Below, piece by piece: positions 1,325 through 23,883 of a stretch of 64,000 nt of DNA (its first letter is position 1; every line of letters starts with the position of its first letter). A model generated the notes under the pieces. The model was not told where the DNA came from, did no database searches, and saw nothing but the letters and a program-made list of their open reading frames with translations. The position numbers and the translations under genes are program-made. Where the stretch lies: assembly GCA_025060455.1 (NCBI GenBank), contig JANXBY010000021.1:1-64000 (forward strand). Direction: 5' to 3'. This stretch comes from Armatimonadota bacterium (GTDB taxonomy: Bacteria; Sysuimicrobiota; Sysuimicrobiia; Sysuimicrobiales; Sysuimicrobiaceae).

Positions 1325-2589
1325 GAGTCGTTCGCCTCCAGGTACCGCTCGGCCTGAAGGCCCAACTCCCGGCCGCGTGCCACGGTGCGGCCGTCCGCGA
1401 AAGCCCCTGCGGCGTCCGTGGGGCCGTCCGTTCCGTCGGTGGCGAAGCTGACCACCAGGACTCCCTCCACTCCGTCCAGCGCGCACGCCGCGGCCAGGGC
1501 CAGCTCCTGGTTCCTCCCGCCCCGGCCCTGTCCGCGTACCGTGACCGTCGTCTCTCCGCCCAGCAACAGGCACGCGGGCGTCGCGACAGGACGGCTGCGG
1601 GCTGCCTCCTCCCGGGCCACCGCGGCGACCACCCGCCCCACTTCCCGCGCCTCTCCTTCCAGGGAGGTCGTCAGCACCAGGACCCGGTAGCCGAGCTGCT
1701 CGGCGACTTCCCTCGCTCCTTCCACCGCCTCCACCACGCTGGCCACGACCCACAGGGTCACCCGTTGGAAGGCCGGATCTCCCGGCTTCGGCGTCTCCGG
1801 CAGCTCGCCGGCTGCCCCACGCTCCAGCCGCTCCCGCACGGCGGCGGGGACACGGTCCACCAACCCGTAGCGCCGGAGTACTGCCAGCGCGTCCGCGTAG
1901 GTAGTGGGGTCCGGGCTGAAAGGCCCGGACGCGATGGCGTCCAGCTGGTTTCCGATCACGTCGCTGACCACTAGCCCCACCACGCGAGCCGGGTAGGCGG
2001 CACGGGCCAGCCAACCGCCCTTCACCGCGGACAGGTGCTTTCGCACCGCGTTGACCTCCCGGATGTTGGCACCGCTGCGGAGCAAAAGGTCGGTGACGGT
2101 CACCTTGTCCTGGAGGGTCAGCCCCTCCGCGGGCACCGGCACGAGCGCTGACCCTCCTCCCGACACCAAGCACACCACCAGGTCACGTTCCCCCGCACCG
2201 TGGAGCAGCTCCAACATCCGGCGGCCCGCCTGTTCGCCCTCTGGCCCCGGCAGGGGGTGGGACGCCTCCACCACCTCCACGCGCCGCAGGGACACCGCGT
2301 GGCCCACCTTGGTAACCACCAGCCCGCCGTCGACCCGCTCGCCCAGGACCTCCTCCGCGGCGCGCGCCATCTGCGCGGACGCTTTCCCGAAGCCCACCAA
2401 CCACACCCGCAGGAACTCCCGCAGGGCCAGCCGCAGGTCGCCAACCACGAGGTCGTCGCCGTCCCGTCGCAGGGCCCTGCGCACGGACGCCTCCGCGTCC
2501 GCGGCGCGCAGCGCCGCGGCCAGGATCTGCCTTGCGTGGCTCCGCAGGTCGCGGCTCCGGTCCACCGGCCCGTCTGCAGGCAGCGCCAC
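1234..2589 (-). CDS. Glycerate kinase, MOFRL family
   Basis: A 451-residue protein matching the type-2 glycerate kinase (GckA/TtuD, MOFRL) family, which phosphorylates D-glycerate, usually to 2-phosphoglycerate. Visible motifs are GFGKAS near residue 55, SHPLPG near 100, SGGGSAL near 125, SDVIGN near 190, and the C-terminal MOFRL-type block with GGETTV and GGRNQEL. The GTG start at 2589 overlaps the stop of the upstream glycosyltransferase by one base, making this the last gene of a four-gene operon. The 3' end runs 91 bases into the opposing DUF5317 gene. Neighbouring glycosyltransferases raise the possibility that the glycerate comes from or goes to a glycosylglycerate. Confidence 0.92.
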   Translation of the reverse strand: MALPADGPVDRSRDLRSHARQILAAALRAADAEASVRRALRRDGDDLVVGDLRLALREFLRVWLVGFGKASAQMARAAEEVLGERVDGGLVVTKVGHAVSLRRVEVVEASHPLPGPEGEQAGRRMLELLHGAGERDLVVCLVSGGGSALVPVPAEGLTLQDKVTVTDLLLRSGANIREVNAVRKHLSAVKGGWLARAAYPARVVGLVVSDVIGNQLDAIASGPFSPDPTTYADALAVLRRYGLVDRVPAAVRERLERGAAGELPETPKPGDPAFQRVTLWVVASVVEAVEGAREVAEQLGYRVLVLTTSLEGEAREVGRVVAAVAREEAARSRPVATPACLLLGGETTVTVRGQGRGGRNQELALAAACALDGVEGVLVVSFATDGTDGPTDAAGAFADGRTVARGRELGLQAERYLEANDSYTFFDALGDLVRTGPTGTNVNDVVVVLAS

Positions 2590-3812
2590 TACAGCCGGTC
2601 CCACGCGGCCACAAGCCGGGGCTTCTCCTGCTCGAACACCTCCGCCTGGCGCTCCACCACCAGCTCCGCCGCGTGACCGTCCATGGCCTGGGTCTCCTCC
2701 ACGAAGGCCGCCACGCGCCCGAAGTACAGCGGCACCAGGCTGGCCAGGACCGCGTCCGGGTCCAGGTCGTCCCGGTGGAACGCCACGGCGAAGTCGTACA
2801 CAGCCCGGGCCCACCACCGGTCGGTGAGCTCTCCTGCGGGCCCTGCCTCCGTCGCCCGCTGCAGCTGCTGGCGTACGTCCGCGGAGACCACGCGGCTCCA
2901 CAGCTCCCCGTGCACGCGCAGCCCTTGCCGGAACCGCTCCACCAACGCAGGTACGGTGACCGGGACGGGCTCCGGCTGGGCGTCCACAGGCTGTCCCACC
3001 TCCGGCACTGGCCGGCTGCCCCGCACCGGCCGCCAGCGGGACGGGTACACCGCCAGCAAGGAGAACAGGGTCCCCACCACCTGCTGGAACATGGGGCCAA
3101 GAGAGGCCGCGGGGTCCTTGGCATCATGCACCTTCGCGCCCAGGTGGGCCTGCACCACGCGGAAGCCCTCGCAGAGGGCCGTAGTGGTCATCCACACGTC
3201 CACGCCGAACCGCGCCACATCGCTCTCCCACACCGGCTTGCCCAGCAGGCGCGCGACCAGTGAGGCAGCCAGCCCGAACTCTCCCCCGATGGGCTGCCGG
3301 ACTCGTGCGCCGTACAGGGCGCGGGTCATGGGGTAGGCCAGGTTGTTGGTGATGGTGCCGTCGTACTTGTGCCGGACGTACAGGGGGGCCACGTAGTCTG
3401 CCTCGCCGGCCAGCACGGGGCCCGCCAGGCGGGCCACCCACCACGGCTCCACGGACCGCAGGTCCGCGTCCACCAGCACACAGCACCGGGCGCCCACCCG
3501 CTGGACCGCCTCCAGCACCGCCCGCACCGCACTGCCCTTCCCGCGGATCCCCTCGTACGGGGTGCAGACGACCCGCACGGGGTCGGGCACGCGGACAGAG
3601 GTGGCAGCATCCGGGGTCCCGTCCGTGGAGCCGCCGTCGGCGTTGAGGATCACCGCGCGCAGGCCGGGGAAGTAGGAGACCACTCCTTCCGCCACCGTCT
3701 GCACCACGTGGGCCACGGTCCCGACATTGTTGAAGCTCGGGACGCCCACCACTAGGTCCGCCCGGGCCACCCGGCGGAGCTCGGCGCGCGTTTCAGGAGG
3801 AAGGGCCTGCAC
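2589..3812 (-). CDS. Family 2-like glycosyltransferase (possible GT81/GpgS relative)
   Basis: A 407-residue GT-A fold glycosyltransferase. The N-terminal VGVPSFNN strand, DGGSTDGT loop and the VDADLRS metal/nucleotide motif are clear, followed by a GGEFG acceptor-side motif near residue 190. A helical C-terminal half carries no recognised motif. The arrangement (DxD-like motif, then GGE, then a conserved His/Asp region) recalls glucosyl-3-phosphoglycerate synthases. The glycerate kinase next door makes a glycerate-type acceptor plausible, but this is inference. The GTG start overlaps the upstream stop by one base. Confidence 0.72.
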   Translation of the reverse strand: MQALPPETRAELRRVARADLVVGVPSFNNVGTVAHVVQTVAEGVVSYFPGLRAVILNADGGSTDGTPDAATSVRVPDPVRVVCTPYEGIRGKGSAVRAVLEAVQRVGARCCVLVDADLRSVEPWWVARLAGPVLAGEADYVAPLYVRHKYDGTITNNLAYPMTRALYGARVRQPIGGEFGLAASLVARLLGKPVWESDVARFGVDVWMTTTALCEGFRVVQAHLGAKVHDAKDPAASLGPMFQQVVGTLFSLLAVYPSRWRPVRGSRPVPEVGQPVDAQPEPVPVTVPALVERFRQGLRVHGELWSRVVSADVRQQLQRATEAGPAGELTDRWWARAVYDFAVAFHRDDLDPDAVLASLVPLYFGRVAAFVEETQAMDGHAAELVVERQAEVFEQEKPRLVAAWDRL

Positions 3813-4594
3813 TACGTCCTCCCCTCCAGGCGGACCTCCGCGCCCTGGTTGGGACGCACCGCCTGGACCTGCGCGGGACGCCCCTCGCGGGCCAGCGCCT
3901 CCGCCACCACGTCCCGCGCCAGCGGCGCCAGGTTGTTCACCTCGCTCACGTGCAGGAGCACGAAACGCTGCGGACGGCCCGCGTTCAGCCGGACCGCGGC
4001 TGCCGCCGCGGTGTCGTTGCTGAGGTGCCCGGTTCGGCCGAGGATGCGGTTTTTCACGAACCACGGGTAGGGGCTCACCCCCAGCAGCCGGAGGTCGTAG
4101 TTGGCCTCCAGCAGCACGACGTCGCAACCGCGGGCGCGTTCCACGAGGTCTTCCCCCACGTCGCCCAGGTCGGTGGCCACCGCCACCCGTGTGCCTGCCG
4201 CCTCCAGCACGAAGGCCACGGGGTCGGTGGCGTCGTGCGGCACCGGTACCGCCTCCACCGTCCAGGAACCCACCCGGACGGACTGCAAGTTGGGGATCCG
4301 CTCGCAGGGCACGGTGCAGCTCCACCCGCAGGCGCGGAGGGTGGCCTCGTTGGCCAGCACGGGGACGCCCAGGGTTCGCGCCAGGGCCGCCGCACCCCGG
4401 GCGTGGTCGTCGTGCTCGTGGGTCAGCAGGATCGCCACGAGAGACCCCGCCGCACAGCCCGTCTCCGCCATCCGCCGCAGCAGCGCCTCCGCGGGCAACC
4501 CCGCGTCCACCAGCAGCGCGGCCCCCTCCACCTCCACCCACACCGCGTTGCCAGCGCTGCCCGACGCCAGCACCACCACCCGACGGTCAGCCAC
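3812..4594 (-). CDS. MBL-fold metallohydrolase (YycJ/WalJ-like)
   Basis: A 260-residue metallo-beta-lactamase fold protein. It opens with VVLASGSAGNAV and LLVDAG strands and carries the metal motif THEHDDHA near residue 60. Further ligands appear in VPHDATDPV and the VATDLGDV region, and a C-terminal LLHVSEVNN segment supplies the last His. This pattern fits the YycJ/WalJ branch, which includes exonuclease-like enzymes. The substrate cannot be read from the sequence. The start is a GTG that overlaps the end of the upstream glycosyltransferase gene by eight bases. Its place inside a glycosyltransferase/glycerate kinase operon is unusual and not explained. Confidence 0.85.
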   Translation of the reverse strand: MADRRVVVLASGSAGNAVWVEVEGAALLVDAGLPAEALLRRMAETGCAAGSLVAILLTHEHDDHARGAAALARTLGVPVLANEATLRACGWSCTVPCERIPNLQSVRVGSWTVEAVPVPHDATDPVAFVLEAAGTRVAVATDLGDVGEDLVERARGCDVVLLEANYDLRLLGVSPYPWFVKNRILGRTGHLSNDTAAAAAVRLNAGRPQRFVLLHVSEVNNLAPLARDVVAEALAREGRPAQVQAVRPNQGAEVRLEGRT

Positions 4595-5822
4595 GACCCC
4601 ATTGTAGGCCGCCGCCGACCACCTGGCGGCACAGCCGCTCCACCAGAGGGATCAACCCCCGCCGCGTGACCTGATCCCACGCAAACCGCTCCGCCACCCG
4701 CCGCCGCAGCCCCGACGCGCGGTCATTGGACAGCTCGCGCACGATGCGCTCCGCCACCGACTCCGGTGATTCTTCGAGGTCGAAGAAGGAAGCCAGCGGG
4801 CCCGCTACCTCGACCGCGGTCGGAATCCGGGAACAGAAGACCGGCACCCGCAGCAGCCCTGCCTCCGCCACCGGCAGGCCGAAGCCCTCTAGGACACTGG
4901 GAACGAGGACTGCGTCGCACAGGAGGTACAGTTCGCCCACCGTCCGCGGTGAGCAGCGCAGCCCTCGTTCTGTGAGGAACACCACGTGGTCCCGGACCCC
5001 CAGCCGGTCCCGGAGCTGCTGCAGCTCCTCCAGGTAGCGAGCGTTAGCGGACGTGTGCGCCCCCAACGGCCCCGTGACCACCACCAAGGGGTCCAGGCCT
5101 CGGCCCCGCAGGCACGCGGCCACTCGGACTGCCAGCTCCAGGTTCTTCCGCCGGGTGACGCGGACCGGCACCAGCAGGACGGGGTACCGGTCCTGCCACC
5201 GCACCTCCCGCACCACCCTCCGGGCCTGCGGCCCCACCAGCCCCAACCCCTCGAAGGAGACGCCAGGCGGGATGACCTCCACGCCGGCCCCGTCTAGCCC
5301 CAGGTGCCCGGCCAGGGACCTGCGCACCGCCTCGCTGGTGGCCACGTACGTCACCTCCGGACGCGCCCGGAGGAACTCCCGCAGCGGTGCCGGCACCCGG
5401 GCGAGTTCGGAGGGGTTGTCCCACACCACGTCGTGGGTCCAGGCCACCCAGCGGCACCGCGCGCCGTCGTCCAGCAGCCGGTGCAGGGCCGCGAGCAGGG
5501 GTAGGTTCTTGGCCGTGGTGAAGACGTTGTGGGCCAGGCACACGCACCCCTCCAGCCGCGCGGCCAGCTCCGAGGCGATGCGCTCCGCGAGCCGCCACAC
5601 GGGCGCCAGGTCGCCCCTCATGGCCGCCTCGTGCGCCCGCTGGACCTCCGGGTGACGGCCGTACAGGAGCGGTAGCACCTCCGCGTGCCGGCCGCGGCCC
5701 GCGACGACCCGCACTGGGTAGCCGGCGTCCTTCAGCCTGCGGGCCTGTTCCGCGAGCACCGCCTCGACCCCGCCCACCACGGGCGGAGCAGAATAGTGCA
5801 GCAGCACGACCTCCACAGCCAT
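4587..5822 (-). CDS. GT4-type glycosyltransferase
   Basis: A 411-residue GT-B fold glycosyltransferase, first gene of the four-gene minus-strand operon. The N-terminal domain begins LLHYSAPPVVGGVE, the usual Gly-rich acceptor-side motif of GT4 enzymes. The C-terminal domain holds VRVTRRKNLELAV near residue 215 and the sugar-nucleotide motif PSVLEGFGLPVAEA near residue 320, with the E-x7-E pair of retaining enzymes. The middle SFEGL/IPPGV linker is typical. Donor and acceptor are unknown. ATG start; no strong ribosome site is obvious upstream. Confidence 0.88.
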   Translation of the reverse strand: MAVEVVLLHYSAPPVVGGVEAVLAEQARRLKDAGYPVRVVAGRGRHAEVLPLLYGRHPEVQRAHEAAMRGDLAPVWRLAERIASELAARLEGCVCLAHNVFTTAKNLPLLAALHRLLDDGARCRWVAWTHDVVWDNPSELARVPAPLREFLRARPEVTYVATSEAVRRSLAGHLGLDGAGVEVIPPGVSFEGLGLVGPQARRVVREVRWQDRYPVLLVPVRVTRRKNLELAVRVAACLRGRGLDPLVVVTGPLGAHTSANARYLEELQQLRDRLGVRDHVVFLTERGLRCSPRTVGELYLLCDAVLVPSVLEGFGLPVAEAGLLRVPVFCSRIPTAVEVAGPLASFFDLEESPESVAERIVRELSNDRASGLRRRVAERFAWDQVTRRGLIPLVERLCRQVVGGGLQWGRG

Positions 5823-5879
5823 CCGGGGTGTAGGTTCTCCGCGGGAGCGCCGGCCCCCTGGGGAAGGCTGGCGCGCCCG

Positions 5880-5888
5880 TGGTAGAAT
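5880..5888 (+). promoter_or_regulatory. Extended -10 promoter of tRNA-Gly
   Basis: TGGTAGAAT fits an extended -10 element (TG-N-TAGAAT) placed 13 bases before the tRNA. No good -35 is seen. The same TG-N-hexamer layout precedes the tRNA-Arg and SRP RNA genes. Confidence 0.6.
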
Positions 5889-5901
5889 ACAGGGCGAGCG
5901 G

Positions 5902-5976
5902 GCGGGTGTAGCTCAGGGGTAGAGCATCGGCTTCCCAAGCCGAGGGCCGCGGGTTCGAATCCCGTCGCCCGCTCCA
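5902..5976 (+). tRNA. tRNA-Gly (anticodon CCC)
   Basis: A cloverleaf is readable by eye. The acceptor stem is GCGGGTG with CGCCCGC. The D arm begins GCTC. The anticodon stem TCGGC/GCCGA encloses loop TTCCCAA with anticodon CCC, and the T loop is TTCGAAT. The 3' CCA is encoded. Confidence 0.95.
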
Positions 5977-6025
5977 GGGCCCCCAACCGTCTTCCCGCAC
6001 GCCACCCTGGGTCCCACGGCGCACC

Positions 6026-6034
6026 TGTCATACT
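6026..6034 (+). promoter_or_regulatory. Extended -10 promoter of the GlcD-type gene
   Basis: TGTCATACT fits an extended -10 element about 34 bases before the GTG start at 6068. No clear -35 is visible. Confidence 0.4.
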
Positions 6035-6067
6035 GTTCCTGTAGCGTGGCTTGGGGAGGTCAGTCCC

Positions 6068-7423
6068 GTGGATCTGGTGTCTCGCCTTGTGCAGCTGCTG
6101 GGCCCGGAGCGCGTGTCCACGGTGGAGTCAGTACTGGACAGCCACGGCCGAGATGAGGGCTACCCCGAGTCCCGGCGGCCCCTTGTGGTGGTCTTCGCGG
6201 AGAACGTGGAGCATGTGCAGGCGACTCTAGCCGCCGCCAGAGAGCACCGCACGCCCGTGATCCCCTATGGCGCGGGCAGCAGCCTGGAAGGCGCCCTGGT
6301 GCCTCTCGGCCCTGCGGTGAGCCTAGACCTGTCGCGCATGGACCGTGTGCTGGAGGTACGCCCGGAGGACTTCCTGGCCACGGTGGAGCCTGGCGTGACC
6401 CACGGCGCGTTGAACCGCGCGGTGCGCCACCACGGCCTGTTCTTCCCCGTAGACCCCGGGGCGGATGCATCTTTGGGCGGCATGGCGGCCACCAACGCCT
6501 CGGGCACCACCACGGTGCGGTACGGGGGCATGCGCCACAACGTCCTGGCCCTCCAGGTGGTTCTGGCGGACGGGCAGGTGCTCGAGCTGGGCCGCCCGGT
6601 GCGCAAGACCAGCTCCGGGTACGACCTGAAGGACCTGTTCATCGGCTCGGAGGGCACCCTCGGGGTCATCACGCGGCTAACGGTTCGGCTGCACCCTCTT
6701 CCGGCCCACGTCCACGCGGCCCGTGCGTTCTTCCCGTCCGTGGAGGCCGCCTCCGAAGCCGCCTACGAGATCATGGCCACAGGCCTGCCGGTGGCGCGCC
6801 TGGAGCTGGTGGACGACCTCAGCATGCGCGTGGTCAACGCGTTCCTGGACCGTCGCGACCCCGAGCAGCCGGCGCTGTTCCTGGAGTTCCACTCCTCTAC
6901 GGAGGCGGCCCTGAGGGCAGAGACGGAGGCGGTGCTGGACGTCTGCCGGGCCCACGGAGCGGGGCTGGTGCAGGCGGCCCAGACCCCGGAGGAGCGCAGC
7001 GCCCTGTGGGAGGCCCGGCACAAGGTTTACTGGGCCGCCACCCACGCGTACCCGGGCCGCGCGTTCTTGACCACGGACGTGGCCGTCCCCCTCTCTAAGC
7101 TGCCGAAGCTGGTGGCCTTCGCCCACCGGCTCCTGCAGGAGACCGGCCTCGTGGGCGGGATCGTGGGCCACGTGGGAGACGGGAACTTCCACGTGTTCGT
7201 GGCCACCCCGCCAGACCAGTACCCGAGGGCGGAGGAGTACAGCGAGCGGCTAGTCCGCCGCGCTCTGGAGGTGGGTGGCACCGCCACCGGCGAGCACGGG
7301 GTGGGGCTGCGCAAGCGCAAGTTCCTCGCCGAGGAACACGGCCCTGCCCTCCCGTGGATGCGCCGCATCAAGGCACTGCTGGACCCGGACGGCCTCCTGA
7401 ACCCCGGCAAGGGGCCCGCATAG
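6068..7423 (+). CDS. FAD-linked 2-hydroxyacid oxidase/dehydrogenase (GlcD family)
   Basis: A 451-residue flavoprotein of the GlcD/D-lactate dehydrogenase family, oxidising glycolate, D-lactate or a similar 2-hydroxyacid. The FAD-binding type-4 domain shows [12 protein letters not shown] near residue 60 and [18 protein letters not shown] near 138. The [11 protein letters not shown] strand is also present. The C-terminal cap includes a GHVGDGNFH metal/substrate motif and the closing [10 protein letters not shown] and [11 protein letters not shown] segments. GTG start. No GlcE or GlcF partner is adjacent, so electrons may pass directly to quinone, cytochrome or another carrier. Confidence 0.92.
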
Positions 7424-7437
7424 GGCAGGGAAGACAC

Positions 7438-8178
7438 GTGGCCCGAGGCCCCATCATCCTGCTGGAGGGCGTCCACAAGTGGTTCGGCCGCCTGCATGTG
7501 CTCCGGGGCATTGACCTCGAGGTGTGGCCCGGCGAGGTGGTGGTGGTGTGCGGGCCGTCCGGCTCGGGGAAGTCCACCCTCATCCGCTGCATCAACCGAC
7601 TGGAGCGGCACGACCGCGGCCGCATCGTGGTAGACGGCATCGAGCTGACCGACGACCTCCGGCACGTGGACGCCGTCCGCCGGGAAGTGGGGATGGTGTT
7701 CCAGCAGTTCAACCTGTTCCCCCACCTCACGGTCCTGCAGAACATCACCCTGGCACCCGTGTTGGTCCGCAGGTGGCCCAAGGAGCAGGCGGAGCGGGTG
7801 GCCCGGGAGCTGCTGGAGCGGGTGGGCATCCCGGACAAGGCCGACAGTTACCCCTCACAGCTCTCAGGCGGCCAGCAGCAGCGGGTGGCCATCGCCCGGG
7901 CCCTCGCCATGCAGCCCAAGATCATGCTGTTCGACGAGCCGACCTCTGCCCTGGACCCGGAGATGATCCAGGAGGTCCTGGACGTGATGCGCGACCTCGC
8001 GCGGCGCGGCATGACCATGGTGGTGGTCACCCACGAGATGGGCTTCGCCCGGGAGGTGGCGGACCGCATGGTGTTCATGGACGAAGGGACCGTGGTGGAG
8101 GTGGCCCCGCCGGACGCGTTCTTCACAAGTCCCCGCCACGAGCGGACCCGGGCGTTCCTGTCGAAGATTCTCCGCTGA
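7438..8178 (+). CDS. Polar amino acid ABC transporter ATPase (GlnQ-type), orphan
   Basis: A 246-residue ABC ATPase with Walker [11 protein letters not shown]-loop [11 protein letters not shown], signature LSGGQQQR, Walker B IMLFDEPT and H-loop VVTHEMGF. These are the marks of the GlnQ/HisP polar amino-acid subfamily. The start chosen is the GTG at 7438, 14 bases after the GlcD-type stop; a longer upstream frame would run inside that gene. No permease or binding protein is adjacent, so its partners must be encoded elsewhere. Its 3' end overlaps the convergent metal-permease gene by 56 bases. Confidence 0.92.
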
Positions 8179-9700
8179 GCCGCCCCAGGACGTCGGAGGA
8201 GGATCCCGCGGGCGCCTCCGCGCGCTCGGCGTGCACCGCCCGCGCCAGGCTCCGGTCCAGCCACACCTCCTGCCCGTCCGTGCGCACGCGCACACCCCGA
8301 GCGTCCTGCTCCAGCACCTCCAGGCGGACTCCGGGGCGCACCCCGTAGGCTTCCAAGGCCCGCAGCACCTTCGGGTCTTCGTCCTCCACCTCCTTCACCT
8401 CCACCCGCTCGCCGGGCGCGCAGTCCACTAACCTCCGTGCCCGGCCGGTGTCCGCGCTCGCCGGAGGGATGGGGGACCCGTGAGGGTCCCGGCGCGGGTG
8501 GCCCAGAGCCTCATCCAGCCGGTCGGCCAGCTCCGCGGGACTGAGGTGTTCCAGCCGCTCCGCCTCCGCGTGTACTTCCGCCCACGACAGGCCCACGCGG
8601 TCCACCAGGTACCGCTCCCACAGGCGGTGCGAGCGGACCAGCTCCACCGCCTGGGCGTGGCCGGCGTCGGTGAGGTTCACCCGGTCCCCGTCCAGCCGCA
8701 CCAGTCCCTGGGCCTGAAGCCTGCGGAGCAGCCGCGAAGCGTGCCGCCGGGGCAGCCCGAGGCGGCCCGCGATCTCCGCCACCGCCACGCCGCCCGCGCC
8801 CAGCAGGTACGCCTGCTTGAGGAAGTCTTCCAGAACCCGGGCGCGGGCCACGCGCCTGCGCCGGACCCACTCCCACACCAGTCCTTCCCGCGGCCCCACC
8901 AGCACCGCCCCGCAAAACAGAAGGCTCGCCACCAGGACCATGGTGGCGCCGGAGGCGACGTTCAGGTGGTACGACAGGAACAGCCCCACCACCGCGGACA
9001 CCACGCCCACCGCCACGGCCCACGCCAGCATCCAGGACATGCGGTCCGTGAGCAGGAAGGCGGTGGCACCTGGCGTGATCAGCATGGCCACCACCAGCAC
9101 GATCCCCACCGTCTGCAGGGAGGCCACGATGGTCAGCGACAGCAGGAACATGAGGGCGTAGTGGAGCACCCCGGTGGGCACTCCCATGGCCGCCGCCGCC
9201 ACGGGGTCGAAGGTCCACAGGACCAGCTCCTTGTACAGGAGGAGGACGGCCGCTACCACCACCGCACCCGTGAGGGCGGTGAGCAGCAGGTCTGAGTCGG
9301 ACACCCCCAGCACGTTGCCGAACAGAATGTGGAACAGGTCTACCGCCTTGCTCCGGATGCGGCTCACGAGGACGAAGCCCAGGGCGAACGCCCCCGTGAA
9401 CACGATCCCCATGGCGGAGTCCTCCTTGATCCGGGTGTGGCGTTCCACCGCGGAGATCCCCAGGGCTGTGAGGATCCCCGTGGTCACCGCCCCAACGAAG
9501 AAGGGCAGCCCCAGCAGGTAGGCGAACGCGACCCCGGGCAGGACGGCGTGGGAGATGGCGTCCCCCAGCAGGGCCCACCGCTTGACCAACAGGAAGCAGC
9601 TGAGCATCGCGCAGACCCCGCCCACCAGGACCGCGGCCAGCAGGGCCCGCTGCATGAACGTGTACTGGAGCGGCGCCCCCACCAACTCCCACACGGTCAT
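8123..9700 (-). CDS. Metal ABC permease fused to a DtxR-like repressor (YtgCR-like)
   Basis: A 525-residue fusion. Residues 1-285 are an ABC-3 family permease for Mn/Zn/Fe with about nine membrane helices and the conserved [14 protein letters not shown] loop near residue 40. After a basic [11 protein letters not shown] linker, residues 300-450 are a DtxR-family repressor: winged helix ([24 protein letters not shown]), then the metal/dimer domain with [10 protein letters not shown] and [11 protein letters not shown]. An FeoA/SH3-like domain follows. At the IdeR Cys102 position there is Glu, as in MntR-type proteins. The architecture matches chlamydial YtgCR. ATG overlaps the ATPase stop (ATGA). 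The operon also encodes a separate repressor. Confidence 0.9.
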
Positions 9701-10458
9701 GGCCGGATCCCCATCCTCTGGTCGGCCACCTCCAACAGGGTGAGCCGGCCCCCGTAGGTGCGCTGCAGGAGGTCGGGCCGGAACACCTCCGCGGGCGGGC
9801 CGTAGGCCACCACGTGCTGGTTCAACAGCAGCAGGCGGTCGAAGGCGGTCTGCGCGCGGCTGAGGTCGTGGGTGGCCACCACCACGGTCCGGCCCTCGTC
9901 CCGCAACCGGTCCAGCAGGGCGTAGATGGCCTCCTCCGTGGCGGCGTCCACACCCACGAAGGGCTCGTCCAGCAGCATCACCGGGGCTTCCTGCGCCAGG
10001 GCGCGGGCCAAGAACACCCGCTGCTGCTGGCCCCCGGACAGCTGGCCGATCTGCCGCCGCGCCAGGGCCTCCATGCCCACCATCCGCAGGCACTCCCGGG
10101 CTACCCGCCGGTCCTCGGGGCCCGGACGGCGCACCCAGCCTACGTGCGGGAACCGCCCCATGAGCACCACTTCCTCCACCACGACCGGGTAGTCCCAGTC
10201 CACCTCCGTGCGCTGTGGGACGTACGCCACCAGCCGGCGCGCCTGGTGGACAGGGTGTCCGAACAGCTCCACGTAGCCTGTGTCCGGGGTCAAAAGCCCC
10301 ACCAACGCCCGCAGGAGGGTGGATTTACCGGCCCCGTTGGGGCCCACCAGGCCCACCCGCAACCCCGGCGGCACGGTCACGCTCACGTTCCGGATGGCGG
10401 GCTTGCCCCGGTAGGACACGGTGAGGTTTTCCACCCGGATGGCAGCAACCTCGCTCAC
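9697..10458 (-). CDS. Metal (Mn/Zn/Fe) ABC transporter ATPase
   Basis: A 253-residue ATPase of the ZnuC/MntA class. Walker A is GPNGAGKST, the Q-loop region is YVPQRTEVDWDYPV (the WDYP signature of metal importers), the signature is LSGGQQQR, Walker B is VMLLDEPF and the switch His lies in VVATHDL. GTG start overlaps the binding-protein stop by four bases and its own stop overlaps the permease start by four. The three transporter genes are therefore translationally coupled. Confidence 0.94.
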   Translation of the reverse strand: MSEVAAIRVENLTVSYRGKPAIRNVSVTVPPGLRVGLVGPNGAGKSTLLRALVGLLTPDTGYVELFGHPVHQARRLVAYVPQRTEVDWDYPVVVEEVVLMGRFPHVGWVRRPGPEDRRVARECLRMVGMEALARRQIGQLSGGQQQRVFLARALAQEAPVMLLDEPFVGVDAATEEAIYALLDRLRDEGRTVVVATHDLSRAQTAFDRLLLLNQHVVAYGPPAEVFRPDLLQRTYGGRLTLLEVADQRMGIRP

Positions 10459-20359: not shown

Positions 20360-21496
20360 ATGCCACGGCTGGTGGACGGCTTTTCCCGCGCGCTGCTGGT
20401 GCCCACGGTGCAGAAGCTGGTGGAGGTCAGCCGCCAGGCCCGGGACGTCTTCCGCCGCGGCCTCACCCGGGAGGCCGCCACGGAGCTGGCCCGGATGCTC
20501 CAGGAGGCCGTGGGCGCGGACGCGGTGGCCCTGGTGGGCCGCGCCCAGGTGCTGGCGTTCGTCGGTGCCGGGGAAGACCACCATATCCCGGGCCAGCCGG
20601 TGACCACGGAGTTCACCAAGCGGGTCCTCTGCACAGGCCAGGTTCAGGTCGCCCACAGCCGGGAGGAGATCGGCTGTCCGCAGCCACACTGCCCCCTGAC
20701 GGCGGCCCTGGTGGTCCCCCTCCGGGTGCGGGGGATGGTGCCGGCCGCCATCAAGTTCTACCGCACGGACGGACGCCCGTTCGCCCCAGAGGTAGTGGAA
20801 GGGGCGGTCCTGGTGGGGGACCTGCTGGGAGCGCAGCTGGAGCTGGCGCTCCTGGACGCGGAGGTGGAGCGGCTCACCCGGGAGGAGCTAAGGGCGCTGC
20901 GGGCGGAGATCTCGCCCCACTTCGTGTTCAACACCCTGCATTCCGTGGCCGCGGTGGTGGGGCGGGACCCCGAGCGCGCGCGCCGGCTGCTCACCGACTT
21001 CGCGGAGTTCCTCCGGCACGCCCTGCGCGCCCACGGGGAGTTCTGCACCCTGGAGGAAGAACTCTGGTACGTGGAGCAGTACCTGACCATCGAGCGGGCC
21101 CGGCTGGGCCCCCGGCTGCGGGCTCAGGTGGACGTGCCCAAAGAGCTGCTCGGCCAGCTGCTGCCGGTGCTGACCCTTCAGCCCCTGGTGGAGAACGCGG
21201 TGGTGCACGGGGTGGAGCCGAAGACGGGTTCCGGCACCGTCCGGGTCCGTGCCGCCCTGAGTGGTGACAGCCTGCTTTTGGTGGTGGAGGACGACGGGGT
21301 GGGGATCCCCGAGGGCCGGCTCCACCTGATCACCGAGCGGGGCGTGGGGTCGGGGCTGGGGATCGGGCTGTTCAACGTGCAGCGCAGGCTACACGCCATC
21401 TACGGGGACGCGGCGGGGCTGCGGGTGGAAAGCGAGGAAGGGCGCGGCACCCGGGTCACCGTGTGGTTGCCGCGGCGCGTGGAGGAGGAGCGGTGA
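20360..21496 (+). CDS. LytS-type sensor histidine kinase without membrane segments
   Basis: A 378-residue kinase. Residues 35-160 form a GAF-like domain with a GCPQPHCPL stretch similar to the GAF part of LytS/BtsS/YpdA sensors. The His-kinase domain (pfam06580-like) has ISPHFVFNTLHS near residue 185 with the phospho-His. The ATPase part has LVENAVVHG and DDGVGIP boxes and a closing SGLGIGLFNVQRRL. The multi-helix membrane region usual in LytS is missing, so it should sense a cytosolic ligand. ATG with AGGAGGAGGA upstream. Its stop overlaps the response regulator start (GTGA). Confidence 0.9.
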   Translation: MPRLVDGFSRALLVPTVQKLVEVSRQARDVFRRGLTREAATELARMLQEAVGADAVALVGRAQVLAFVGAGEDHHIPGQPVTTEFTKRVLCTGQVQVAHSREEIGCPQPHCPLTAALVVPLRVRGMVPAAIKFYRTDGRPFAPEVVEGAVLVGDLLGAQLELALLDAEVERLTREELRALRAEISPHFVFNTLHSVAAVVGRDPERARRLLTDFAEFLRHALRAHGEFCTLEEELWYVEQYLTIERARLGPRLRAQVDVPKELLGQLLPVLTLQPLVENAVVHGVEPKTGSGTVRVRAALSGDSLLLVVEDDGVGIPEGRLHLITERGVGSGLGIGLFNVQRRLHAIYGDAAGLRVESEEGRGTRVTVWLPRRVEEER

Positions 21497-22200
21497 CCCG
21501 CAAGCTCCGGCTGTTGGTTGCGGACGACGACCCGGAGGCCCGGCGGTACCTGGAAGAACTCCTTCGGGAAGCCGGGCAGGACGAGGTGGAGTGCGTGGAC
21601 TCCGCGGACGCGGCCCTGGAGCGGCTGCGGCAGGGACCTGTGGACGCCCTGTTTTTGGACATCCGTATGCCGGGGCTTTCGGGCTTGGACCTGCTCCGCA
21701 GCCTGTCCGCGCTACCGCGGAAGCCCCGCGTGGTGCTGGTCTCGGGGTTTGAGGACCATGCCCTGGAAGCCTTCGAGGCTGCTGCCTTCGACTACCTCCT
21801 CAAGCCCGTGGACCGCGCCCGGCTGCGGAAAACCCTGGAGCGGCTGCTGCAGGAAGACCCGCCTGCTGCTTCCCGGGTGGCGGTGCCCACGGGCGACCAC
21901 GCGGTGCTCCTGGACCCCTCGGACATCCTGTACGTGCAGGCCCAGGGGGACACCTGCCGGGTGGTGACCCGCACCGGCACCGTGGAGGCCAGCTGCAACG
22001 TGGGTCAGCTGCAACGCCGCCTCCCTCCAGGTCAGTTCGTGCGGGTCCACCGGAGCTACGTGGTGAACCTGGACTGCGTCCGGGAGGTGCACCCCTACTT
22101 TTCCGGCACGCTGCTGCTGAAGCTCGACGACGACCAGGGTACCGAGATCCCGGTCAGCCGGTCCGCGGCCCGTACCCTCCGGCTGCTCCTGCACCTGTAA
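21493..22200 (+). CDS. LytTR-family response regulator
   Basis: A 235-residue regulator. The receiver domain has the acidic pair DDD near residue 10, phospho-acceptor Asp in LFLDIRMPG near 55 and the Lys in YLLKPVD near 103. The C-terminal half is a LytTR DNA-binding domain with ILYVQAQGDTCRVVTRTG and FVRVHRSYVVNLDCVREV. GTG start overlaps the kinase stop by four bases. It is expected to bind a pair of 9-base direct repeats; a candidate lies 41 bases downstream, in front of the Cys-rich peptide and isocitrate lyase genes. Confidence 0.93.
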   Translation: MTRKLRLLVADDDPEARRYLEELLREAGQDEVECVDSADAALERLRQGPVDALFLDIRMPGLSGLDLLRSLSALPRKPRVVLVSGFEDHALEAFEAAAFDYLLKPVDRARLRKTLERLLQEDPPAASRVAVPTGDHAVLLDPSDILYVQAQGDTCRVVTRTGTVEASCNVGQLQRRLPPGQFVRVHRSYVVNLDCVREVHPYFSGTLLLKLDDDQGTEIPVSRSAARTLRLLLHL

Positions 22201-22240: not shown

Positions 22241-22270
22241 GCCGTTCATCACCGTTTTTGAACCATTCGT
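22241..22270 (+). promoter_or_regulatory. Candidate LytTR binding site upstream of the small Cys-rich gene and aceA
   Basis: GCCGTTCAT (22241-22249) and ACCATTCGT (22262-22270) are separated by 12 bases. Each matches the LytTR half-site pattern [TA][AC][CA]GTTN[AG][TG] at all but one position. The surrounding gap 22201-22349 also has an AT-rich stretch (22211-22222) that could serve a promoter. Confidence 0.55.
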
Positions 22271-22349
22271 CCCCCGCCTGGTGGAGTTGGTCGCCGCTCC
22301 GTGGAGGGGGTGTGGGCGCGGGGCGCACAGTGGAGGCGAGGTGAGCGTG

Positions 22350-22529
22350 ATGGCCACGTGTTGGTGCGGACGGGCGGTGCGCTGGTTTGAGGCGTGGACC
22401 TGCCAGAGTTGCGGCGCTCCTTGTTGTCCGAGCTGTGCGTACACCCCCGAGGGCACGGCGTACTGCGCCGCGTGCGCGGCCCTGGGGGAGCTGGAGGCCC
22501 AGCTGGTAGCCTTGCCCGAAGCCTCGTAG
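22350..22529 (+). CDS. Small Cys-rich (double zinc-ribbon-like) protein
   Basis: A 59-residue protein with four CxxC-like groups: CWCG near residue 4, CQSC near 18, CCPSC near 24 and CAAC near 39. The spacing suggests one or two zinc-binding ribbons. The family is not recognised. ATG 22350 follows GAGGTGA at five bases; an in-frame GTG lies at 22341. It sits between the LytT-type regulator and isocitrate lyase genes, 49 bases before the latter, and is probably co-transcribed with it. Confidence 0.7.
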   Translation: MATCWCGRAVRWFEAWTCQSCGAPCCPSCAYTPEGTAYCAACAALGELEAQLVALPEAS

Positions 22530-22578: not shown

Positions 22579-23883
22579 ATGGAGCACGCCTTGGAGCGCG
22601 AGGCGCGCGAGCTGCAGGCGCGCTGGCAGCAGGACCCCCGGTGGCACGGGGTCAGGCGGCTGTACACCTCCCAAGACGTGGTGCGCCTGCGCGGGTCGGT
22701 CCGCGTGGAGTACACCTTGGCCCGCCGCGGGGCGGAGCGGCTGTGGCAGGCGCTGCACCGGGAGCCGTTCGTGGCGGCCCTGGGCGCCCTGTCGGGGATG
22801 CAGGCAGTCCAGATGGTGAAGGCTGGGCTGCAGGCCATCTACCTCAGTGGCTGGCAGGTGGCCGCGGACAGCAACCTGGCGGAGGCCACCTACCCGGACC
22901 TGGGGCTGTATCCGTGGACCAGCGGACCGGCCCTGGTCCGGCGCATCAACAACGCCCTCCGTCGGGCCGACCAGATCGAGTGGGCGGAGGCGGGGTTCGC
23001 CCGGCGGGACTGGCTGGTGCCCATCGTGGCGGACGCGGAAGCCGGGTTCGGCGGGCCGCTCAGCGCCTTCGAGGTGACCCGGGCGTTCATCGAGGCGGGG
23101 GCCGCCGCGGTGCACTTCGAGGACCAGCTGGCCTCGGAGAAGAAGTGCGGGCACCTGGGCGGGAAGGTCCTGGTCCCCACCGCACAGTTCGTGCGGGTGC
23201 TACAGGCGGCCCGCCTGGCCGCGGACGTGTGTGACGTGCCCACGGTCCTGATCGCCCGCACTGACGCCCGCGACGCGCGGCTTTTGACCGGCGACGCGGA
23301 CCCCTACGACGCACCGTTCCTGACGGGCGAGCGGACTCCCGAGGGCTACCACGTGGTCCGGCCCGGCCTGGAGGCGGCCATCCACCGGGCTCTGGCCTAC
23401 GCCCCGTACGCGGACCTGCTGTGGTTCGAGACGTCCCGGCCTGACCAGGAGGAGGCAGCCCGGTTCGCGCAGGCGGTGCACGCCCGCTTCCCAGGCAAGC
23501 TCCTGGCCTACAACTGCTCGCCCAGCTTCCACTGGCGCCGGCACCTGGACCCGCAGTCCATCGCTTCCTTCCAGCAGGAGCTGGCCACCATGGGCTACCG
23601 GTTCCAGTTCGTGACCCTGGCGGGCTTCCACGCCCTGTGCGCGTCCACCTTCCAGCTCGCCCACGACTACGCGCGCCGCGGGATGCCGGCCTACGTGGAG
23701 CTGCAGGAGAGGGAGTTCCAGCTGGAACGGGACGGGTACACCGCTACCCGCCACCAGAGGGAAGTGGGCACGGGCTACTTCGACACCCTCCTGCAGGCCC
23801 TGGGGGTGAGCTCCACGGTGGCCTTGGAAGGGTCCACAGAGGCCGAACAGTTCGTCCCGGCCGCCGCGCGGTCCACCGCCTGA
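22579..23883 (+). CDS. aceA: Isocitrate lyase
   Basis: A 434-residue isocitrate lyase, which cleaves isocitrate into succinate and glyoxylate in the glyoxylate shunt. The catalytic loop [10 protein letters not shown] near residue 195 holds the active Cys. Other marks are [10 protein letters not shown] near 155, [11 protein letters not shown] near 182, [11 protein letters not shown] near 225 and the NCSPSFHW motif near 315. Malate synthase is not in the window. An AGGAGG ribosome site precedes the ATG. Its position behind a LytS/LytT pair suggests control by a carboxylate signal. Confidence 0.96.

Follow-up and report, generated by a model that had tools for sequence, protein, structure and literature searches.

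We found a soluble sensor kinase and response regulator of the LytS/LytT type encoded beside aceA, the isocitrate lyase gene, in an uncultured Armatimonadota bacterium, with an array of LytTR-type half-sites lying between the regulator gene and the aceA operon in the 64,000-nucleotide stretch of DNA analysed here (the window). As a whole explanation, we propose that LytS and LytT switch on the aceA operon via this half-site array, a reading to which we assign a probability of roughly 0.7. Entry into the glyoxylate shunt is thus probably under the control of this sensor-regulator pair. Gene order, domains, the half-site array, its spacing and its conservation are all read from sequence, and it is from layout and spacing alone that we infer activation rather than repression by LytT. 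The initial annotation had proposed that LytT turns on the glyoxylate shunt; the repeat, the gene order and the soluble pair on which it drew were upheld, while its argument from pyruvate sensing was not.

The kinase gene lytS (20360..21496, + strand) encodes a soluble protein of 378 aa with a GAF-His_kinase(PF06580)-HATPase_c architecture by Pfam and hydropathy, and lytT (21493..22200, + strand), whose start overlaps the lytS stop, encodes a 235-aa response regulator with receiver and LytTR domains. LytS scored 76.3 bits for His_kinase PF06580 and 62.1 bits for HATPase_c in Pfam, with a GAF match as well. Pfam gave no 5TMR-LYT match in LytS, and the top 19-residue hydropathy of 1.57 indicates no membrane helix, which bears out the earlier description of a sensor that lacks the usual membrane helices and keeps only a GAF-like domain. 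The protein is LytS-like, falling outside the strict LytS class with its 5TM-5TMR_LYT input; LytS-type kinases (HPK8) are defined in the accessible part of PMC5552118. Its H-box His187 and N-box residues were invariant in 23 aligned kinases. The AlphaFold model of LytS (mean pLDDT 83) matched folds of kinases and bacteriophytochromes, with GanS (6swj/6swk) as the nearest solved kinase domain, and suggested no ligand. In LytT, Pfam matches to Response_reg (91 bits) and LytTR (82.9 bits) were both above cut-off, Asp56 and Lys104 were invariant in 10 aligned rows, and the FhRhHRS motif described for LytTR regulators in the consulted part of PMC4227749 is kept as FVRVHRS in the alignment.

The operon downstream begins with a gene for a Cys-rich peptide of 59 aa (22350..22529, + strand), followed by aceA (22579..23883, + strand), whose product of 434 aa matched Pfam ICL and exceeded the cut-offs of NCBIfam NF011645 (711 bits against 562) and TIGR01346 (543 against 276). 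The AceA translation contains SEKKCGH, which includes the isocitrate lyase signature KKCGH. For comparison, a family set of seven genomes from three genera was found by search (G000-G006, where G000 is the genome of the window). The peptide gene is present in six of these and in G026, a genome outside the family, which makes 7/43 genomes of the phylum (probably Sysuimicrobiota, CSP1-3), all 43 belonging to one order. Its nine Cys are invariant in seven rows, and it had no Pfam or NCBIfam match; a PDB fold search returned weak treble-clef/RING/FYVE-like matches only (best E about 1). Its structure model suggests a treble-clef-like zinc fold plus a helix, and the peptide is probably zinc-binding. 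Malate synthase was found in six of the seven family genomes, though not in the 72%-complete G002, so that, by gene content, a full glyoxylate shunt can be drawn. As a possible second target of the regulator, malate synthase was considered and rejected, since by eye no array-like pair was shared among the top-scoring pairs in its loci.

A LytTR-type direct repeat with a 12-base spacer had been noted ahead of the peptide gene and aceA, and it stands as read: GCCGTTCAT-N12-ACCATTCGT is an exact 30-mer at 22241-22270 on the + strand, starting 40 bases 3' of the lytT stop and 79 bases 5' of the peptide ATG, with aceA next. At up to three mismatches, this 30-mer is the sole match in the window (chance expectation 0.03). 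We scored pairs of half-sites at a 21-bp pitch with a weight matrix built from 42 published half-sites in tables of PMC6193735, a collection dominated by other phyla with low-GC genomes and applied here to a GC-rich host. By this matrix, the repeat ranks eighth of 127,942 window positions, with seven other places higher, and the local p of the best pair is 0.0075 when the comparison covers the 121 possible starts from lytT to the peptide gene. On its own, then, the repeat is unremarkable by matrix score, and matrix matches in a single genome were set aside as uninformative, equal-scoring pairs being common elsewhere. A search for a whole-genome regulon was likewise abandoned: the strict pattern CCRYT-N15-ACCRTTCR, which was modelled on the repeat and its relatives and hence provides no independent test, had one match in the 2.26-Mb genome (the repeat itself) against one for the reversed control, and a looser pattern was near chance, with 1-13 matches per genome across 13 genomes and many genomes at or below the control count. 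Within the 12-bp spacer, a further LytTR-like 9-mer, ACCGTTTTT, occupies 22251-22259, about one helical turn from either half-site, and ACCGTTTTTGAACC reads the same in G000, G001 and G003, whereas G002 carries a single change. The weight of the case is carried by conservation across genomes and not by the single sequence.

The order lytS-lytT-aceA is kept in all seven family genomes, with the peptide gene in between in G000-G004 and G006 and missing in G005; the G002 contig stops just inside aceA. By matrix, the top-scoring pair at a 21-bp pitch ahead of the operon lies on a common array in 7/7, with genomes of the same genus not independent of each other and G002 the weakest; local p values were 0.0075 in G000, 0.011 in G001, 0.11 in G002, 0.014 in G003, 0.0026 in G004, 0.021 in G005 and 0.0049 in G006. 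When the G002 stretch was lengthened by a few bases into lytT, another pair at the lytT end topped the array (6.7). The check that the initial annotation had called for, conservation of gene order and site in relatives, thus did not refute it: in none of the seven was the array lost where the order is kept. Within the genus, 20/30 repeat columns were identical against 60/125 elsewhere between the genes, so the repeat is only moderately better conserved than its surroundings. Among 30 start-to-start distances (10-39), 21 gave the top mean best score (8.70), followed by 5.46 at 10, and with one genome per genus the observed mean at pitch 21 was reached by 0/5000 mononucleotide shuffles. In G004 and G006, a gene for a BpsA-type branched-chain polyamine synthase (L036 7457-8587 and the corresponding position of L038, both in one genus; assigned by Pfam in G004 and by similar DNA in G006) separates lytT from the peptide gene, and the array lies after it, directly before the peptide gene. 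The array keeps this place in spite of the intervening gene, which argues that it belongs to the operon and not to the lytT end.

These comparisons bear on the reading in which what is conserved is part of the promoter or leader, or a binding site for some other regulator, with a coincidental likeness to LytTR sites and with aceA perhaps read through from lytST. No + strand terminator was found after lytT, so read-through is possible, and aceA also occurs without lytST in the same order. An order-wide aceA search (41 genomes) detected strong isocitrate lyases outside the family in G012, G018 and G026, and no LytS/LytT match was found beside aceA in these three stretches, the G012 contig being only 3.4 kb; G012 and G018 have aceB-aceA (G018 by ORF reading), and G026 has peptide-aceA (peptide at L174 1222-1395) with a divergent LysR-family gene in the stead of lytST. 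The presence of peptide-aceA without lytST in G026 indicates that this pair predates LytT control or exists independently of it. However, a pitch of 21 stands out of 30 distances in three genera, in G004 and G006 the array travels with the operon, and the same half-site pair recurs near LytT relatives elsewhere, and we regard a coincidental likeness as improbable. It is the comparison across the family that makes the LytTR repeat convincing as a predicted site.

The operator had been described as one 30-bp pair; the upper two half-sites are real, but a third position is likely part of the array, and the operator probably comprises as many as three half-sites at a 21-bp pitch. H1 (GCCGTTCAT, 22241..22249, + strand) has counterparts in G001, G002, G003 and G005 and is absent in G004 and G006. 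H2 (ACCATTCGT, 22262..22270, + strand) has good counterparts in G001, G003, G004 and G006 and weak ones in G005 and in G002, where it is degraded. H3 (GGAGTTGGT, 22283..22291, + strand) is proposed only by homology of position: its place reads ACCGTTCGN in G002, G004, G005 and G006, and it is degenerate in G000, G001 and G003, with a poor matrix score of -8.2. The stronger pair by matrix is H1-H2 in G000, G001, G003 and G005, and H2-H3 in G002, G004 and G006. LytTR regulators bind 9-11-bp repeats with an 11-13-bp spacer according to the consulted sections of PMC4847170, and the array sequence fits this rule as a predicted operator.

Downstream of H3, a putative -35 element (TGGAGG, 22302..22307, + strand) lies 10 bp after the half-site, in the same place in 7/7 genomes, and a putative -10 element (CACAGT, of the form NANANT, 22326..22331, + strand) lies 42-43 bp from the H3 start in 7/7, so that all seven share H2-N12-H3-N10-[TGGAGN, TGGAAC or TCGAGG]-N17/18-[NANANT]. 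Both elements are positional guesses; a sigma-70 consensus promoter scan gave no match. This layout bears on whether LytT bound to the array could instead repress the operon, or merely keep it poised, with the signal lifting repression. Spacing is the sole footing of the activator reading, and the array position would be compatible with repression. Against this, the array stops 10 bp short of the putative -35 and does not cover it, which is the placement for LytTR-activated promoters in PMC6193735, whose tabulated promoters have 9-bp repeats, mostly with a 12-bp spacer and usually 10 bp to the -35. We consider repression very improbable.

The genome encodes two LytTR proteins, and the array could be the target of the second (G000:C2), or common to both regulators. 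This protein is 40% identical to LytT and is encoded in a symporter cluster. Nevertheless, the adjacent lytT accompanies the array in 7/7 genomes, and the paralogue loci (L041-L044) have no shared counterpart of the array, their top pairs differing save for one common to L043 and L044; a role for the second regulator at the array therefore seems quite improbable. At the paralogue locus itself (L041, G000:C2:62000-80000, 1506-10182), two sodium:solute symporters flank the second LytS/LytT pair, and genes for a DUF294/CBS protein and a DnaQ-like exonuclease lie between the second kinase and regulator. A quick tree grouped LytT toward Actinomycetota and the paralogue, with an SH-aLRT of 92, which is under the 95 mark, and a long-branch warning. 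Autoregulation of lytS was rejected, as no matching site was found on either strand of the lytS upstream regions of the seven genomes, where the best pairs reached only -8.2 to 2.3.

Under activation by LytT, we envisage that soluble LytS would sense a cytosolic cue via its GAF domain and phosphorylate LytT, and that LytT~P would bind head-to-tail on 9-bp half-sites that repeat every 21 bp, or two helical turns, immediately ahead of the promoter. Binding along the ladder may be cooperative, with polymerase recruited at the promoter; YpdB, for which the available text of PMC4847170 describes cooperative and sequential binding to a high- and then a low-affinity site, would offer a reasonable parallel to a ladder in which one of the steps is weak. 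Transcription of aceA would then most likely be activated, opening the glyoxylate shunt.

Relatives of LytT were sought more widely with a GTDB genome scan using the LytT alignment, which yielded 80 loci (889,674 bases). Across these loci, nine NCCRYTCRN pairs had a spacer of 12 (one being L094, which is G003), against 0-4 for each of 12 other spacers. A wider pairing of lytST with aceA across GTDB loci was discarded, as aceA was found in 1/80 loci, again L094. A sodium:solute symporter match was found in 11 of 84 loci searched, every one from Actinomycetota, and 5/15 Actinomycetota loci (L125, L133, L141, L164 and L165) carry a repeat of this type. In L133 and L141, ACCGTTCRT-N12-ACCGTTCG precedes a DUF485-like gene (by Pfam in L133) and a symporter, which in L141 scores 848 bits (cut-off 670) for the NCBIfam model of MctC, a monocarboxylic acid transporter, and in L125 a similar repeat lies ahead of DUF4212 and symporter genes. 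With a looser pattern, 14 Actinomycetota genomes had 11 sites against five for the control, and seven of the 11 were beside a LytT or symporter match; pattern sites in L197 and L199 were set aside, having no evident connection to LytT or to a symporter. In L141 and L133 (Actinomadura), a CRP-like palindrome, GTGA...TCACA, lies downstream of the repeat and before the DUF485-like gene, ahead of the transport genes.

What LytS senses had been argued by analogy with the pyruvate sensors BtsS and YpdA. BtsS binds pyruvate via Arg72, Arg99, Cys110 and Ser113 in transmembrane helices in the account available from PMC10653868. This analogy fails: the BtsS pocket lies in membrane helices, LytS is without a membrane domain, and by Pfam and hydropathy no transmembrane pyruvate pocket is present. 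Acetate was neither inducer nor competitor in the BtsS system in the consulted part of PMC5431176; taken together with the transmembrane position of the BtsS pocket, this makes BtsS homology uninformative on the LytS ligand. For the E. coli GAF domain, PMC5552118 proposes, in the part available, an unidentified intracellular stimulus. Given that GAF-only relatives adjoin MctC/ActP-type symporters, some with a near-identical repeat, a cytosolic C2/C3 carboxylate signal is a fair guess; genomic company speaks for monocarboxylate or acetyl-CoA as the cue, and we tentatively suggest, at somewhat under even odds, a monocarboxylate- or C2-related signal for LytS. The cue could instead be the redox or metal state, read via the GAF Cys pair, with LytT still controlling aceA and no carboxylate involved. 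In an alignment of 23 kinases that spans several phyla, at least 90% retain Cys106 and Cys111 of the GAF domain, and the operon also includes the nine-Cys, probably zinc-binding peptide, which together make a thiol or metal cue conceivable. However, the genomic company is one of carbon uptake and C2 metabolism, with monocarboxylate/acetate-type symporters in Actinomycetota and aceA here, and we hold a redox or metal cue to be possible but doubtful.

The roles most often associated with LytTR systems are in virulence, competence, bacteriocins and pyruvate uptake. A soluble system that targets a metabolic enzyme would help to separate sensing by the GAF domain from sensing by the membrane domain, a question raised for E. 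coli in the accessible part of PMC5552118. As a speculation that we consider unlikely as a whole, the cytosolic, membrane-free LytS/LytTR branch might be a central-carbon switch in this phylum, governing the glyoxylate shunt through a three-step operator with half-sites every 21 bp, the strongest pair of which would slide two helical turns between genera, and, in another family (G009), having an orphan LytT relative that faces a transaldolase-RuBisCO-phosphoribulokinase operon; its GAF domain might read a C2/C3 metabolite or, through the conserved Cys pair, the thiol state inside the cell, and not outside pyruvate. The orphan LytT relative in question (L040, G009:C42, 3061-7005) is divergent from an operon for transaldolase/FSA, RuBisCO large chain and phosphoribulokinase, and a candidate repeat, ATCGCTTGC-N12-ACCGTTCAC, lies in between (local p 0.033, both strands; one genome).

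The closest known arrangement is that of Bacillus subtilis, in which lytST adjoins pftAB, with two 13-nt LytT boxes, 8 nt apart, in the intergenic region, both required, as described in the consulted part of PMC5626966. As there, lytST lies here beside a carbon-metabolism operon, predicted to be regulated, with boxes at a 21-bp pitch in between. In contrast to B. subtilis, where the target is a pyruvate transporter and the inducer is pyruvate, the candidate target here is isocitrate lyase, the kinase is without a membrane domain, and the operator may have up to three half-sites. LytS and LytT share GAF, kinase and regulator domains and, as predicted here, a direct-repeat operator with E. coli BtsS/BtsR and YpdA/YpdB, as far as these are covered in the available parts of PMC5552118, PMC10653868 and PMC4847170, but the membrane helices with which BtsS senses pyruvate are missing in LytS and the E. 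coli targets are transporters. LytT scored 129.4 bits against the BtsR model, not passing its cut-off of 246. Actinomycetota pairs of apparently GAF-only type (L133, L141, L165 and L125) are 37-43% identical to LytS over the aligned kinase part, GAF included, and have ACCGTTCGT-type repeats with a 12-bp spacer near the locus; unlike here, the repeat stands beside DUF485-MctC or DUF4212-symporter genes, with no aceA in those loci. We noticed no description of such Actinomycetota pairs beside MctC/ActP-type symporters in the open-licence literature, where likewise no title or abstract opening links LytTR to isocitrate lyase or glyoxylate. With the promoters tabulated in PMC6193735 the array shares the 12-bp spacer and the 10 bp from half-site to putative -35; in those systems, in the part consulted, the LytTR regulator is accompanied by a membrane inhibitor, unlike the kinase/regulator pair beside a central-metabolism gene described here. 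The plan of lytST, LytT boxes and a carbon gene was thus already known from B. subtilis pftAB, within what PMC5626966 makes available; new are isocitrate lyase as the proposed target, a membrane-free sensor tied to that target, and a possible three-step operator.
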